64,000 nucleotides of DNA from Myxococcales bacterium. Lineage in GTDB: Bacteria; Myxococcota_A; Polyangia; Polyangiales; Polyangiaceae. Location of the stretch: positions 1 through 64,000 of the forward strand of contig CAHJWM010000009.1 of the NCBI GenBank assembly GCA_903642325.1. The letters are read 5' to 3'. The notes under the pieces are model-generated. The model had not been told where the DNA came from and did no database searches. It saw only the letters and a program-made list of their open reading frames with translations. Numbering within the stretch: the first letter of the stretch is position 1; each line of letters starts with the position of its first letter. Made by a program: the position numbers and the translations under genes. Below, in pieces: positions 21,884-27,795 of the stretch.

Positions 21884-22813
21884 TCAGCCGAGCTGGACCA
21901 AGCGGCTGAGCTCCGCGAGCCGAGCGAAAGCGCCGTGTTGAGTGAGCTTGGAGGTCACCCGCGTGCCCACGCCTTCGACGCAGAATGACGCGATGCAGCC
22001 CGCCATCATCAGGGCGCGTCGGAACGTGCCGGCGTCGAGCTCGCCGACGTTGGCCAGGTAACCCATGAGGGCGCCGGCAAAGGTGTCGCCCGCGCCCGTT
22101 GGATCGACCTCGTTATCGAGCGGGAAAGCCGGCGCAAAAAAACAGCCGTGGTCATCGAATAGCATCGCGCCGAACTCGCCACGTTTGACGACCAGCCGCT
22201 TGGGTCCCATGCCAAGCACTTTGGTCGCGGCGCGTTTCACATTGTGATCTTCGGCCAGCTGCCGCAGCTCTTCGTCGTTGATGATCAGGAGATCGATTTT
22301 CGATAGCAGCTCGAGCAAGGTCTTTCGTTCACCCTCGATCCAAAAGTTCATGGTGTCCGCGGCAACCAAGCGCGGCTTTTGGGCTTGGTCGAGCACCTCT
22401 AGTTGCAAAGCGGGGTGAATATTGCCGAGCAGTACGAACGGCGTCGAGGTGTACGCCGCCGGCAACTTCGGCCGAAAATCTGCGAATACATTGAGTTGCG
22501 TGTCGAGCGTCATCCGGCCGGTCAGATTTTCGGCGTAGCGCCCGGCCCATCGAAACGTTTTACCGGCGGCTCGCTCGACCCCCGCGATATCGATGCCGTG
22601 GTTTTTCAGATCTGCCAACGTCGCTTCGGGAAAGTCCGCGCCGACGACGGCTACGATTTGCACGGGTGCGAACAATGCGGCGGAGTAGGCGGCGTACGTG
22701 GCAGATCCGCCCACGACGTCTTTCTCGGCTCCGCTGGGCAATTCGAGGTCGTCGAAGGCAACGGAGCCGACAATCAATACGGGGGACGCTTGTTCTCGAG
22801 GCTTGCTGATCAT
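21884..22813 (-). CDS. PfkB family sugar/nucleoside kinase
   Basis: About 309 residues. PfkB signatures are both present: the N-terminal VVGGSATYAAYSAALF (sugar-binding Gly-Gly region) and the C-terminal DPTGAGDTFAGALMG with the catalytic Asp in GAGD. LIINDEELRQLAED is the usual middle motif. Substrates of this subgroup include ribose, adenosine or sugar derivatives; I cannot choose. The ATG at 22813 overlaps the gmk stop in ATGA, so it is translated from the gmk message; this pairing with a guanylate kinase hints at nucleoside or ribose salvage. Confidence 0.88.
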   Translation of the reverse strand: MISKPREQASPVLIVGSVAFDDLELPSGAEKDVVGGSATYAAYSAALFAPVQIVAVVGADFPEATLADLKNHGIDIAGVERAAGKTFRWAGRYAENLTGRMTLDTQLNVFADFRPKLPAAYTSTPFVLLGNIHPALQLEVLDQAQKPRLVAADTMNFWIEGERKTLLELLSKIDLLIINDEELRQLAEDHNVKRAATKVLGMGPKRLVVKRGEFGAMLFDDHGCFFAPAFPLDNEVDPTGAGDTFAGALMGYLANVGELDAGTFRRALMMAGCIASFCVEGVGTRVTSKLTQHGAFARLAELSRLVQLG

Positions 22814-23499
22814 CCTGATTTCTCTCTTGCTGATGGCGCGGAAGATGACCCTGGCGCGGCCGATGGCGGCTTCGAACCGCCAAAGCCCCGGCCTTCGGCG
22901 AGCAGCCGTTCCGCGTGGCGCGCTGCGCGGTGGCGCCGGCATTCTTCGGCTCTAAAGATGGAGACGAGTTGCTTCGTCGCTTCCTCGAGCTCCTCGTTCA
23001 CGAGCACGTAGTCGAAGAGCCCGTAGTGCTCGATTTCTCCGAGCGCAACGCCGAAGCGGCGCCGAACCGTCTCTTCGTCCTCGCTGGCTCGGCCCCGCAA
23101 GCGCTGCTCGAGGATCGCCATCGTGGGTGGGAGGATGAAGACCGCGACGGCGTGGGGCGCAGCGCTCTTGATCTGGCGGGCGCCCTGATGATCGATATCG
23201 AAGATGATGCCCCGGTTCTGCTCGCCGCGCTCGAGCTCGGCTTTGCCCGTGCCGTACAGGTTGCCGTGCACCTCGGCCCATTCCAAAAATGCGCCCGCGG
23301 CGATCAAGCGCAAAAACTCGGCCCGGTCCACGAAATGATACTCGCGCCCGTTCCGTTCGTTCTGGCGGGGCTTGCGCGTGGTGTGAGACACGCTGAAGCG
23401 TAGCTCCGGGACGTCCTGCAAAAGCCGCGCGGTCAAGGTCGTCTTTCCGGCGCCGGAGGGCGAAGACACGATCAGCGGTAAGGGGCCGTCATTCGACAT
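22810..23499 (-). CDS. gmk: Guanylate kinase
   Basis: A 229-residue P-loop kinase that phosphorylates GMP to GDP with ATP. The P-loop is SSPSGAGKTTL (residues 12-22); the GMP-binding parts SVSHTTRKPRQNERNG (split here from YHFVDRAEF) and FLEWAEVHGNLYGT are canonical, as is IIFDIDHQGARQIK. The C-terminal ~40 residues (Gly/Ser/Ala-rich) exceed E. coli Gmk. It overlaps yicC by 11 bases upstream and pfkB by 4 downstream. Because it makes GDP, it lies on the same metabolic path as (p)ppGpp, relevant to the gene at 24992-26005. Confidence 0.95.
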   Translation of the reverse strand: MSNDGPLPLIVSSPSGAGKTTLTARLLQDVPELRFSVSHTTRKPRQNERNGREYHFVDRAEFLRLIAAGAFLEWAEVHGNLYGTGKAELERGEQNRGIIFDIDHQGARQIKSAAPHAVAVFILPPTMAILEQRLRGRASEDEETVRRRFGVALGEIEHYGLFDYVLVNEELEEATKQLVSIFRAEECRRHRAARHAERLLAEGRGFGGSKPPSAAPGSSSAPSAREKSG

Positions 23500-24361
23500 T
23501 CTGGACCTGCTCTCGAATGCGCTCGATCTCCGCCTTCATTTCCACGACCAAATGTGCAGTTCTCGCATCTTGGGTCTTCGCACCAATCGTATTCGATTCC
23601 CGTCCGATTTCCTGCAGTAGAAAGTCTAGGCGACGGCCTACGGGGCCCTCTGCTTCGAGCAAGTGGGCGAACTGGTCGAAGTGGCACTCGAGCCGCACCA
23701 GCTCTTCGGTCACGTCACTGCGGTCGGCCAAAATCGCCAATTCGGCCTCCAAGCGACCGGCGTCGAGCTGCAGCCCAGTGTCGGACAGCAAGCGGTCGAG
23801 GCGCTCGCGAAGTCGCGCGCGGGCGGCCTCGAGCAGCTCGGGACCTCGCACTGAAATGTGGGCTCGCAACTGGCGAGCAGACAAAAGCCGAGCGCTCAGC
23901 TCGCGGCTCAGAGCTTTGCCCTCGTGGCTGCGCATGTCGGTGAGCCGCCGAAGGGCGTCACCGAAGGCGGATTGGAGCGCTACCTGCGCTGCCCCACGTT
24001 CGGCAGTCGCGGGCCTAGTCATCAGGTCCGGCATGGCCGCAAGCGCGGTCATGGGCAGCGCGCTGCCCGGCGCGAGCTCATCGCGGAGCTCCTGTAACCC
24101 GCGGTATAGCGCCCGCGCGCGCTCGATTGAAAACCTGGCGGGCGGCAGCGCCGAGCCTTCCAACCGCGCGGCCACTTCGAATCGGCCACGTGCCAAACGT
24201 TCGCGCGCCAGCTGCTCCAGGAAAAACGCCTGGTCAACGAGCTCCTCCGGCAAACGCACTCGCACGTCTAGATAGCGGTGGTTTAGCGCACGAAGCTCGA
24301 GCACGACCCGCCCATCGCCGAGCGGAGCGTCCCCGGTGCCGAACCCCGTCATGCTCCTCAC
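23489..24361 (-). CDS. yicC: YicC family endoribonuclease-like protein
   Basis: A 290-residue YicC protein. The N-terminal MRSMTGFGTG and ELRALNHRYLDVRVRLPEEL, the middle AELAILADRSDVTEELVRLECHF (given in part) and the C-terminal LDFLLQEIGRESNTIGAK and MKAEIERIREQVQNVE are the family hallmarks. E. coli YicC acts in sRNA (RyhB) decay. The common genomic order yicC-gmk is preserved here. Confidence 0.95.
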   Translation of the reverse strand: MRSMTGFGTGDAPLGDGRVVLELRALNHRYLDVRVRLPEELVDQAFFLEQLARERLARGRFEVAARLEGSALPPARFSIERARALYRGLQELRDELAPGSALPMTALAAMPDLMTRPATAERGAAQVALQSAFGDALRRLTDMRSHEGKALSRELSARLLSARQLRAHISVRGPELLEAARARLRERLDRLLSDTGLQLDAGRLEAELAILADRSDVTEELVRLECHFDQFAHLLEAEGPVGRRLDFLLQEIGRESNTIGAKTQDARTAHLVVEMKAEIERIREQVQNVE

Positions 24362-24367
24362 CGGGAC

Positions 24368-24877
24368 TCACAGCCCTTTTCGACGCTTGATTTCCTCCAT
24401 CATGCGCCGATATTCGACTTCCCAAACGGCGGTGCCTTCCTGAACGTGCTTCAGTTGCCCGCGCACCTGGGTCTCGATCTCTTCGTCCTCCACGAACTGA
24501 CGTCGCAGTGGGTCCCTCATCTTCCGGCGCAGCACGAAGTCTTCGGCGAAAATCTCGTCGACATTGGCCGAGTGCATCAGCATCTCGATCAGCTGATCCA
24601 GAAGGTAGTCGATGGCATCTTCGTTCAGCTTGATCTTGCGCTCTTCGGCGACCAGCTTCCGGATGCGGTTGTAATCCGTCTGCGGCAAGTTGCGCGCGGC
24701 GAGCATGGATTTGGCTTGCTCGCTGACTTCTTGCTCGTCGCGGATGTATTGGTTGAGCACGGACGCGATGTCGAGACCGACCTCTTTCGGGGATTCGCTC
24801 TCGACGTCGCCCCCCGATAGGAGCGCACCGACCATTTCGGCCGCAATCTGGGGCACCTTCGCGCTGTGAAGCCGCAT
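24368..24877 (-). CDS. DUF507 family protein, tandem-domain form
   Basis: A 169-residue helical protein with the DUF507 look twice: residues ~1-55 (KVPQIAAEMVGALLSGGDVE, EVGLDIASVLNQYI) and ~80-140 (RKIKLNEDAIDYLLDQLIEML, EIFAEDFVLRRKMRDPLRR). The family is found mainly in Deltaproteobacteria/Myxococcota and Aquificae and has no known function; single-domain versions are ~90 residues and often come as neighbouring pairs, so this seems to be a fused pair. It lies 6 bases upstream of yicC and so heads the operon DUF507-yicC-gmk-pfkB. Confidence 0.82.
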   Translation of the reverse strand: MRLHSAKVPQIAAEMVGALLSGGDVESESPKEVGLDIASVLNQYIRDEQEVSEQAKSMLAARNLPQTDYNRIRKLVAEERKIKLNEDAIDYLLDQLIEMLMHSANVDEIFAEDFVLRRKMRDPLRRQFVEDEEIETQVRGQLKHVQEGTAVWEVEYRRMMEEIKRRKGL

Positions 24878-24991: not shown

Positions 24992-26005
24992 TCAGGGCTT
25001 TTGCGCAGCGCGCGAACCGCGGCGCAGCCGGCGGAAAACCGCCTGTCGCTGGCGCTGCTTATAGGCGTCGTGACTAGCTTCGCCTGTCTCGTTGGCGGCC
25101 TCGCTCTCGGCGTCGAGGACCTGAAACTCGCAGAGCATGTACACGATCGGTCCTAAGCTCTCCGAGCCGGGCGGGGCGAGCTCCATCAAGTGAGTGGGAA
25201 CCCGGACGGGGACGTCCGTGACGAACTGGATCACGCGGTATGTTGGAGCGCTGAAGCGGTTGTCCGTAGGCAGCAGCGTGTCGTCCAGTTGGCCCTGGAA
25301 GTCCGGAACCATCTTTGCAAGGTGCGGATTCTGATCGCAGTAGCTGCGAAAGTGAAAAATCGTGTTCGTGCTTTGCTTTGGCACGACATAGTTGAAGGGA
25401 AAAAGCTGCTCGGTCAGGTAGTGCAGTACCGGTAGCACGTGCTCCCGGGTCTTGGTCACGATTCGAAACCGAAGCTTGTCGTACAGAGCGGCGGCCGTCG
25501 CTTCCGGCTTCGATAAGAGCTTAGTATAGGTCGAGTCCAGATTCTTCCGGCCTCCGATGAACTCCGTGATCGGAAAGCCCTCACTCAGCATCGTGCCTAC
25601 GACGCGGTACACTTTCTCCTCGACCAAGTGGAAGAGATCCCGATCGCTCACGGGCAGACGAAAGAGCAGCTCCCGCCCGGCCATGTGATTGATGATCTGA
25701 ACGGTTTTCAAGATCGTGCAGGCACACAGCTGACGATGTCCCGTACCGGAGGCCAAGAGCATCAGCTCTTCGATTCCCATGGCCTCGACTGGCTTTGGGA
25801 TGGCGAACTTGAAGTGACGCCGGAGGTAGCTGACTGCGTCGCGCTTCACGTGCGCGATGAAGGCGCGGTCGCCAGGCGCGCTCAGGTTCAGCTCGTGATT
25901 TTCCAGAAATTGGCGCGCGGCGTCCGGGCCAGTCAGGTTCAACCGGTGCCAATCGATCACGGAGGTGCCGCTCAAGATCAGACGCAGCGCCTCTACGTCG
26001 TGCAT
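24992..26005 (-). CDS. Putative RelA/SpoT-type nucleotidyltransferase (conserved myxobacterial family of unknown function)
   Basis: A 337-residue soluble protein. From recall it belongs to a conserved hypothetical family (TIGR04552/TIGR04562-like); no function is attached to it. What I see is a full set of (p)ppGpp-synthetase motifs in the right order: GGRKNLDSTYTKLL (Arg153, Lys154, Ser158, Lys162; compare RxKxxxSxxxK), ALYDKLRFRIV (Asp176 and Arg181; compare DxxGxRI), FNYVVPK (compare DYIxxPK), PTYRVIQFV (Tyr256; compare GYRSxHxxV), CEFQVLDAE (Glu293, Gln295; compare ExQIRT) and ASHDAYKQ (His312; compare AAHWxYK). The two acidic residues that bind Mg in Rel enzymes, Asp and the Glu of ExQ, are both present. 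There is a ~40-residue insertion between PK and YR, and an N-terminal helical part of ~145 residues. No HD hydrolase. Activity (GTP, ATP, ADP or another acceptor) is inference. Confidence 0.72.
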   Translation of the reverse strand: MHDVEALRLILSGTSVIDWHRLNLTGPDAARQFLENHELNLSAPGDRAFIAHVKRDAVSYLRRHFKFAIPKPVEAMGIEELMLLASGTGHRQLCACTILKTVQIINHMAGRELLFRLPVSDRDLFHLVEEKVYRVVGTMLSEGFPITEFIGGRKNLDSTYTKLLSKPEATAAALYDKLRFRIVTKTREHVLPVLHYLTEQLFPFNYVVPKQSTNTIFHFRSYCDQNPHLAKMVPDFQGQLDDTLLPTDNRFSAPTYRVIQFVTDVPVRVPTHLMELAPPGSESLGPIVYMLCEFQVLDAESEAANETGEASHDAYKQRQRQAVFRRLRRGSRAAQKP

Positions 26006-26076: not shown

Positions 26077-26247
26077 TCAGTGGTTCGTCGTCGTCGCGTT
26101 ACCCGGCGTCGGGCGGCCTAGAGCCAGGGTGCCGAAGAAGATGCCGATCGTAACGCCAAGCACGAGAACTTGCGCGCCGAAGCGACCGTTTGCAGCCATC
26201 AGAGCGACAGGGATCGGGGCGACGAGGTACCACGGGTTCAACTTCAT
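26077..26247 (-). CDS. Small two-span membrane protein
   Basis: A 56-residue protein, ATG at 26247 with GGAG about 10 bases upstream. It starts MKLNPWYLVAPIPVALMAANG, has a second hydrophobic span GAQVLVLGVTIGIFFGTLAL, and ends in a short Thr-rich tail. No family recognised. It lies 71 bases upstream of the RelA/SpoT-like gene on the same strand, so co-transcription is possible, which would make a small membrane partner conceivable but unproven. Confidence 0.55.
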   Translation of the reverse strand: MKLNPWYLVAPIPVALMAANGRFGAQVLVLGVTIGIFFGTLALGRPTPGNATTTNH

Positions 26248-26527: not shown

Positions 26528-27046
26528 GTGGAAAGTCGCTATGGCCGAGCCACTGCACGTAGGCTCGCGGGGTGGTTCGGCTCGGCCGCTCTGTGCTTGA
26601 GCGGCTGCGGTGATCACGGCTTTTTTCCCGGCACGGTGGAGCAGGGCGCAGACTTCGCTGTCGCGGACGTCGTGTTCCAACCGACGTATTACTATTGCAA
26701 GGTCGAGCCAGTCTTATTTGAAAGCAGCTGTGGGAGCGGCGACCCCGCGAAGGGCGACCCGGTTGGCGGCTGCCACTTCAGCGCCACACCCTATCGACTG
26801 ACCGACTACGTGCCGCATGTGAGCGACAGCTGCAACGCCACGCTCCTGCCCGCCTCAGTCAATATCCCAGACGCGGCCCTGCACAACTACGAGGTATCGC
26901 AAGCACGCATGAAACGGAACGCGGAGCTTGCGCCACTTTTGCAACGGCCGACCGGAAATCAGTTCCATCCGCGCAAAATCTTCGAGCTCGATTCGAGCGA
27001 CGCGGATGCCATCCGCCAGTGGGCGACCCAGTTTTCGAATCAATGA
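26528..27046 (+). CDS. Lipoprotein with cytochrome-c-like CX13CH motif
   Basis: A 172-residue lipoprotein (GTG start; signal ending in lipobox LSGC, Cys27). The mature part has YYYCKVEPVLFESSC...GGCHFSAT: Cys57, Cys68, Cys82 and His83. The lead-in xxVEPVLF-x-xxC and the distal FHPRKIFELDSSDADAIRQWATQF look like the c-type domain (VxPIL..C..CH ... LxxWI) of planctomycete-style cytochromes, but the cysteines flanking the CH are 13 residues apart instead of 2. It may bind heme through a wide motif or have been disulfide-stabilised; unproven. It overlaps the next gene by ATGA. Confidence 0.65.
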   Translation: MESRYGRATARRLAGWFGSAALCLSGCGDHGFFPGTVEQGADFAVADVVFQPTYYYCKVEPVLFESSCGSGDPAKGDPVGGCHFSATPYRLTDYVPHVSDSCNATLLPASVNIPDAALHNYEVSQARMKRNAELAPLLQRPTGNQFHPRKIFELDSSDADAIRQWATQFSNQ

Positions 27047-27795
27047 GGGCCACGCTCACCGCGTTGCTGCTGCTCGCTGCCTGGGCGCCGAAGCGTGCGA
27101 CGGCGTCCGAGAGCGACGATGTCTTCGCGCGCGTGGTCGTCGCGGATACGGATTTACGCGCCGGCCCCGGCATCTCTCATCTCATCATTTATCACGCTCA
27201 TCGCGGGGAGTCGTTCTTGATCCAGAGCCGCGAGACGGCTGGATTTTGGCTGCAAGTCGTATTGGATGACGGCCGCATCGCTTATCTGCTCGGTGACACG
27301 GCGGAGACCATGGCGGTCGAGGGGGCGGTCGACGCTCCGCCGAGCCCTGGCTTTTTTGCACCGCCCGCATTGCAGCACGCTCGCGGGGGCTTCGCGCTAC
27401 TCGGCGGAGTGTACGACCGCGATGGCTACGTGGAGCTGAAGCCTGCTTACGTCTTGGCGCCGGCCGTTGCATTTGAGCCCTTCGTCGGCTTAGCGCTCAA
27501 AAGCGATAGTCGACGGGTCACGTATGGTTTGGCCGGTACGCTGAATCTGGCGCCGGATTGGGCGATCGCGCCGTTCGTAACGCTCGGTGCGGGCGGCATG
27601 CGCGAAACGCCGAAAGACGAGGCCGGAGTACAGCATCCGCGTAACTGGTTCCAAGCACGCGCGGGTGGGGGAATCTTGATCTCGCTTCGCTTTCGGGTCC
27701 TTTTTCGGCTCGAGGCGTCGAACATGGTGCTGTACACCGCGGATGCCTATCAGAACGTGCAGACCTACATCGGCGGACTTGGAACGTATTTCTGA
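27043..27795 (+). CDS. SH3-domain protein with outer-membrane beta-barrel
   Basis: A 250-residue secreted protein with signal peptide (MRATLTALLLLAAWAPKRATA). Residues ~30-90 form a bacterial SH3 fold (VVVADTDLRAGPGISHLIIYHAHRGE ... FWLQVVLDDGRIAYLLGD, seen in pieces). Residues ~105-250 are amphipathic strands with a terminal aromatic (GGLGTYF), typical of an 8-10-stranded barrel. The start is the ATG at 27043, which overlaps the stop of the lipoprotein gene; an upstream ATG at 27019 is inside it. Probably outer-membrane, tied to peptidoglycan by SH3. Confidence 0.74.
   Translation: MRATLTALLLLAAWAPKRATASESDDVFARVVVADTDLRAGPGISHLIIYHAHRGESFLIQSRETAGFWLQVVLDDGRIAYLLGDTAETMAVEGAVDAPPSPGFFAPPALQHARGGFALLGGVYDRDGYVELKPAYVLAPAVAFEPFVGLALKSDSRRVTYGLAGTLNLAPDWAIAPFVTLGAGGMRETPKDEAGVQHPRNWFQARAGGGILISLRFRVLFRLEASNMVLYTADAYQNVQTYIGGLGTYF

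Follow-up and report, generated by a model that had tools for sequence, protein, structure and literature searches.

Enzymes with the RelA/SpoT-type synthetase fold have been described as long RSH proteins (Rel, RelA and SpoT), as SAS proteins (RelP, RelQ/SAS1 and RelV), which consist of a single synthetase domain without a hydrolase, and as toxSAS proteins (FaRel2, CapRel and Tas1/Apk1). The spacing between the ExQ and YK motifs of the SAS differs from that of the long RSH type. The distributions of the SAS are scattered, which suggests horizontal transfer (PMC3153485). A beta/delta-proteobacterial group, bdRel, is among those listed in Atkinson 2011. The toxSAS have the fold and the donor residues R/K/S/K, D, R, E and Q in common with the family analysed below, and in the structure of FaRel2 K66, S70 and K74 bind the ATP phosphates, D90 binds Mg, and R95, Q147 and E145 contact the adenine (PMC11782079).

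Here we analyse a gene in a window of 64,000 nucleotides, by which we mean the whole stretch of DNA studied. The open reading frame runs from 26005 to 24992 on the minus strand, the plus strand being interrupted by stops; a preliminary description of the locus had given its exact coordinates, to which the strand is now added. The 337-residue product belongs to the NCBIfam family TIGR04552 (E = 4.8e-95, 318.8 bits over residues 2-328, the curated cut-off being 125 bits), and the sister model TIGR04562 also matches it (E = 6.4e-92). Both models are without assigned function in NCBIfam, but the label of a conserved hypothetical of Myxococcota used in the preliminary description overlooked the fact that the family was already catalogued. 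The only paper that we found to name it does so as a mutated gene (PMC9888234). The family name, the fold, and a Pfam match to a few members are already known; the novelty lies in the firm placement of the family as a whole in the RSH superfamily (by comparison with a Rel profile and with Rel, SAS and toxSAS structures), in the apparent rebuilding of the acceptor site, and in a linked small membrane protein. Our preferred reading, to which we would give a probability of about two in three, is that of an RSH pyrophosphotransferase with an intact donor site and most likely a guanine acceptor, which works with the membrane protein encoded upstream. The features of the locus are collected in Table 1.

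Table 1. Coordinates of the enzyme gene, its predicted domains and motifs, and its neighbours in the window.
Feature	Coordinates	Strand	Remarks
TIGR04552 family protein, 337 aa	24992..26005	-	helical N-terminal domain 1-117 and RelA/SpoT-type synthetase domain ~118-321
N-terminal helical domain, residues 1-117	25655..26005	-	invariant D18 and C96
R153-K154...S158...K162, ATP-phosphate-binding Lys/Ser/Lys, predicted donor site	25520..25549	-	K154, S158, K162 invariant in 113 members; R153 in 100
D176-KLRF-R181, predicted Mg ligand and adenine-contacting Arg	25463..25480	-	113/113
Apparently remodelled acceptor region, residues 212-256: S212, N214, insertion, N249, F251, Y256	25238..25372	-	Y256 is Y in 106 and F in 7 of 113
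E293-F-Q295, then ExGxASHxxYKxRQ	25049..25129	-	gapless alignment to EIQIRT...AExGIAAHWxYKERQ of Rel
DUF507 protein (PF04368, 1e-33)	24368..24877	-	downstream of enzyme; found beside it only in the host's family
YicC/YloC family endoribonuclease	23489..24361	-	
Guanylate kinase (gmk)	22810..23499	-	
Unannotated 56-aa membrane protein (MKLNPWYLVAPIPVALMAANGRFGAQVLVLGVTIGIFFGTLALGRPTPGNATTTNH)	26077..26247	-	conserved partner, directly upstream of enzyme

Assignment to the RelA/SpoT superfamily

The Pfam RelA_SpoT profile gives only a weak score with the 337-residue protein (19.5 bits, for a gathering cut-off of 27 bits). However, it matches 34 of the 35 aligned family members (best E = 1.6e-8), and two of ten members scanned, L103 (29.1 bits) and L021 (28.3 bits), exceed the cut-off, so that the resemblance is not due to chance. 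Searches of the PDB by sequence, with either the single sequence or a profile, found no relative (one chance match at E = 0.34). The family alignment was also compared by hhalign with one of long Rel proteins drawn from the same class. The synthetase part of this own-clade Rel matched with 96.0% probability (E = 4.6e-9), whereas eight column-shuffled controls gave 0.0-0.5%, a reversed profile 1.8%, and the HD part of Rel 0.1%. In this alignment K154/S158/K162, D176, R181, N249, Y256, H/Q260, E293 and Q295 fall on the RSH motifs, and no gap interrupts the stretch from E293 to the end, which lies along EIQIRT...AEHGIAAHWKYKERQ of Rel.

The predicted structure leads to the same assignment. An AlphaFold2 model was built from 35 family members (pLDDT 81.2, pTM 0.79), and all 40 PDB matches that Foldseek returned for it at E<0.001 are RSH or SAS synthetases. 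In VIA-align the matches span residues 118-321 of the model, with Z = 10.7-11.0 for the long RSH structures (RelSeq 11.0, rmsd 3.0 over 123 residues; RelA 10.9), 9.5-10.4 for RelP and SAS1 (the latter 10.4), and 6.7 for CapRel. The low TM-scores that Foldseek gives over the whole chain (about 0.3 by query length) are partly explained by the lack of a counterpart to the N-terminal part. When residues 1-117 were predicted alone (pLDDT 85), a fold search of the PDB with this domain gave nothing significant (best Foldseek E = 2.5, best VIA Z = 3.4). No HD, TGS or ACT domain was matched by Pfam in the protein, and the HD profile does not match the N-terminal domain (0.1%).

By profile comparison and predicted fold, then, the 337-residue protein is a divergent member of the RSH synthetase superfamily. 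The preliminary description had anticipated this fold, the lack of HD, TGS and ACT parts, and a helical N-terminal part, which we delimit at residues 1-117; the structural comparison that it proposed matched the model, at E<0.001, to synthetases only. With the long RSH proteins the family shares K..S..K, DxxxxR, the Tyr loop, ExQ, and the ungapped ExGxAxHxxYK tail, but only about 20% identity, and it differs from them in lacking HD, TGS and ACT, in having another helical domain at the N-terminus, and in its seemingly rebuilt acceptor loop. It is like the SAS in its single synthetase domain, but differs in its 117-residue N-terminal domain, in an insertion of about 40 residues, in the absence of a conserved basic PK motif, and in an ExQ-to-YK spacing that is of the long RSH type.

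Conservation of the predicted active site

Conservation was assessed in 113 non-identical members with 22-83% identity to the 337-residue protein. Twelve columns of this alignment are invariant (D18, C96, L99, K154, S158, K162, D176, R181, N214, N249, E293 and Q295), and seven of them are donor or metal residues: the two Mg-binding acids, D176 and E293, and the ATP donor-site residues K154, S158, K162, R181 and Q295, each found in 113/113 members, with equivalence to the FaRel2 residues taken from our own alignment. The hypergeometric probability that seven named positions all fall among the twelve invariant ones is 9e-12. In thirteen divergent members R179 is replaced by G, so that DxxGxR takes its canonical form, and the Tyr loop of most of these reads YxSIQ.

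The acceptor side is different. The Lys of the PK motif is replaced in most members (G66, S15, K12), the His of YxSxH is Gln in the 337-residue protein and varies in the family (H67/Q27/N18), and the basic acceptor motif RFKDY/FKDY is not recognisable. The acceptor loop retains its Tyr, and N214 and N249, the latter paired by hhalign with the Asn of PKPNxY, flank the ~40-residue insertion. We read this pattern as a site whose donor half appears intact and whose acceptor half appears to have been rebuilt.

The motifs quoted in the preliminary description were all located (S158, K162, YDKLRFRIV, NYVVPK at 205-210, TYRVIQFV with Y256, E293-F-Q295 and ASHDAYK), and its Mg-binding Asp176 and Glu293, the invariance of these two residues, Arg181 and Gln295 for which it proposed a check, and its insertion between PK and the Tyr loop all hold in the family alignment. 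Of the two outcomes that it named as refuting, another fold and a lack of conservation of Asp176/Glu293, neither was observed. Its motif RxKxxxSxxxK must be amended, as the actual letters are RKxxxSxxxK: K154 does align with the RSH Lys, but R153 is not invariant. The set of synthetase motifs cannot be called complete, since the PK Lys is not conserved and the YxSxH His is variable.

The same features bear on the nature of the acceptor. An active pyrophosphokinase could use a non-guanine acceptor, either adenine nucleotides, giving (p)ppApp, or the 3' end of RNA; an intact donor site beside a lost PK Lys and an unrecognisable FKDY would fit such an enzyme, as would an insertion with its own invariant Asn residues, and the tRNA-modifying FaRel2 is marked by reduced positive charge on the acceptor side (PMC11782079). 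On the other hand the acceptor-loop Tyr is kept, RelSeq, RelA and SAS1 are closer to the predicted structure (Z 10-11) than CapRel is, and most known relatives with adenine specificity are toxins that have antitoxins, while no defence family of PADLOC was matched here. We regard a non-guanine acceptor as rather unlikely. A guanine acceptor is our default because the Tyr is kept and because of the closeness to Rel and SAS.

The small membrane protein encoded upstream

The most informative neighbour of the enzyme, overlooked in the preliminary description, is a small gene with a GGAG ribosome-binding-like sequence before its ATG. Its stop ends 71 nt before the ATG of the enzyme, with no terminator-like site in the gap. 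The same hydrophobic motif was first spotted among small ORFs upstream of the enzyme in three distant loci, and a scan followed by an iterated profile then located it ahead of most members. A typical partner reads MKxTPWYLAALAP...GCSGAxxGHxAVLxVTxGIFxGTLSLGR followed by a short Pro/Ser/Thr-rich tail; by inspection, two segments are hydrophobic and both ends carry basic residues. A lipobox-like Cys, present in 34 of 75 partner sequences, is absent from the protein of the window. No Pfam or NCBIfam family describes this membrane protein of about 56 residues. In L106 and L107, which carry divergent members, a strongly reduced motif, ALFWATISLGR, is found upstream of the enzyme (at -79/-80); these reduced versions suggest that the second predicted membrane segment is the conserved core.

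Among 112 non-redundant loci the partner lies within 700 nt upstream of the enzyme and on the same strand in 81, downstream in none, and antisense in one, a genuine flipped copy; since the upstream set was itself used to iterate the profile, the weight rests on the downstream and antisense controls. Nonsynonymous change is lower than synonymous change in 28 of 28 independent pairs, and the partner is thus under purifying selection at the protein level. In the 39 genomes of the host's own kin there is one strong partner match in 36; G008 and G024, which are without the enzyme, have none, and G035 has only the enzyme. Across the sample of the phylum, 36 genomes have a partner at E<1e-5 and every one of them also has the enzyme, side by side in 33 and elsewhere in three (the partner is relocated in G011, G045 and G094), and no sampled genome without the enzyme gave a strong match. 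The partner was not detected in the TIGR04562-like clade and in several other families that keep the enzyme, so that not every family member needs it. A different small membrane gene in these partner-less clades was seen only in isolated cases, L163, L166 and L112, where other ORFs with membrane segments lie directly upstream of the enzyme.

It could be argued that the enzyme is as we propose and that the small gene merely shares its locus without any functional relation, given that its strand is opposite to that of the enzyme in L019 and L092 and that several families lack it. We find this unlikely, because of the single strong copy per genome, its position beside the enzyme in 33/36 genomes, its retention even when detached, and the lack of a strong match in enzyme-less genomes, which include two close relatives. 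We read the enzyme and the small protein together as a putative membrane-coupled enzyme of the RelA/SpoT type.

Distribution, gene context and proposed function

The enzyme, whose family occurs in predatory and soil-dwelling Myxococcota, is found in 119 of 189 genomes of the phylum and in none of 14 control genomes. It is single-copy in 37/39 genomes of the host's own kin, and its identity falls from 75-83% within the genus to 49-60% within the order, as expected of vertical descent; in being nearly universal in its order it contrasts with the scattered SAS. Two full-length members with different TIGR04552 scores occur in G177 (C127, C97) and in G194 (C170, C30), possibly one copy per sub-clade. 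A family member is also present in Bdellovibrio sp. NC01; its gene acquired a small indel in one experimentally evolved population (PMC9888234) and so may be dispensable there. A canonical Rel, carrying HD, RelA_SpoT, TGS and ACT domains, is encoded in the genome of the window as well, and is the only protein there that exceeds the RelA_SpoT cut-off.

In most loci of the host's family the enzyme gene is followed by DUF507-yicC-gmk, and to this extent the preliminary description was right to place it near guanylate metabolism. Outside this family the neighbours, named by eye, resemble lon, rpoN-hpf-rapZ, rsgA, recD2 and others, and clustering of gene neighbours revealed no common annotated one; the guanylate-kinase context was thus rejected as a general clue, the gmk linkage being confined to the host's family. 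Two genes divergent from the module (26528-27046 and 27019-27795, both on the plus strand) recur at this position in many loci from the host's family; the product of the former has no Pfam match, and that of the latter has only a weak match to SH3_3. In L153, L155, L156, L104 and L170, from several other families, a gene that by eye resembles a Lon protease is divergent from the enzyme; Lon is linked to stringent-response physiology. In L162 and L167, from another family, the divergent neighbours resemble, again by eye, rpoN, hpf and rapZ; Hpf is a ribosome hibernation factor.

A catalytically dead relative, binding ATP or an alarmone as a sensor or scaffold, might account for Gln or Asn at the YxSxH His in 45/113 members and for the poor conservation of PK and of the Arg of RxK, but full invariance of the metal acids and of five other donor residues at identities down to 22% is not as expected after loss of catalysis, and we consider this reading quite improbable. 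A toxin-antitoxin pair, in which the enzyme would be a toxSAS and the membrane protein its antitoxin, is very improbable: the tiny gene upstream in a two-gene order and the fold in common with toxSAS (CapRel, Z = 6.7) are outweighed by the nearly universal, single-copy and vertical occurrence of the enzyme in the order, by the absence of family members from plasmid, phage and viral contig collections and of matches to the known defence families of PADLOC or to PHROGs, and by a partner that can be relocated or be absent from whole clades keeping the enzyme.

Returning to a pyrophosphotransferase with a membrane partner, the fold, the ATP/Mg residues and the gene pairing suggest a membrane-linked enzyme of the alarmone type. 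Pyrophosphate transfer is likely on the basis of the alignments and the predicted model. ATP-Mg would be held by K154/S158/K162, D176, R181, E293 and Q295, and an acceptor stacking on Y256 would receive the beta-gamma pyrophosphate at its 3'-OH. This acceptor would most likely be a guanine nucleotide, yielding a (p)ppGpp-type alarmone; it is the least certain step, because the acceptor loop is rebuilt. The N-terminal helical domain, in the place of the HD hydrolase, is probably regulatory, and the canonical Rel, through its HD domain, would remove the product. As to the membrane protein, we infer a physical interaction by which it would either tether the enzyme to the inner membrane or switch it. 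Against this reading stand the non-conserved RFKDY/PK, the Gln in place of the loop His, and an RxK Arg that is offset by one and lost in 13/113 members. More tentatively, and with some doubt, we envisage that the two genes form a module, almost universal within one order of Myxococcota and passed on vertically alongside canonical Rel, in which a membrane protein of about 56 residues controls, at the inner membrane, a RelA/SpoT-type pyrophosphotransferase whose acceptor pocket is rebuilt.

Myxococcota are models of starvation-driven development and predation, in which (p)ppGpp is a key signal. If such a module exists, there would be in these bacteria a membrane-linked pathway for an alarmone, or for a new pyrophosphorylated product, that is separate from the ribosome-linked stringent response. 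The assignment gives a family without a function a testable chemistry and uncovers an unannotated family of small proteins; (p)ppGpp signalling would gain a further input or product from a second conserved enzyme of the RelA/SpoT type that has a membrane partner.
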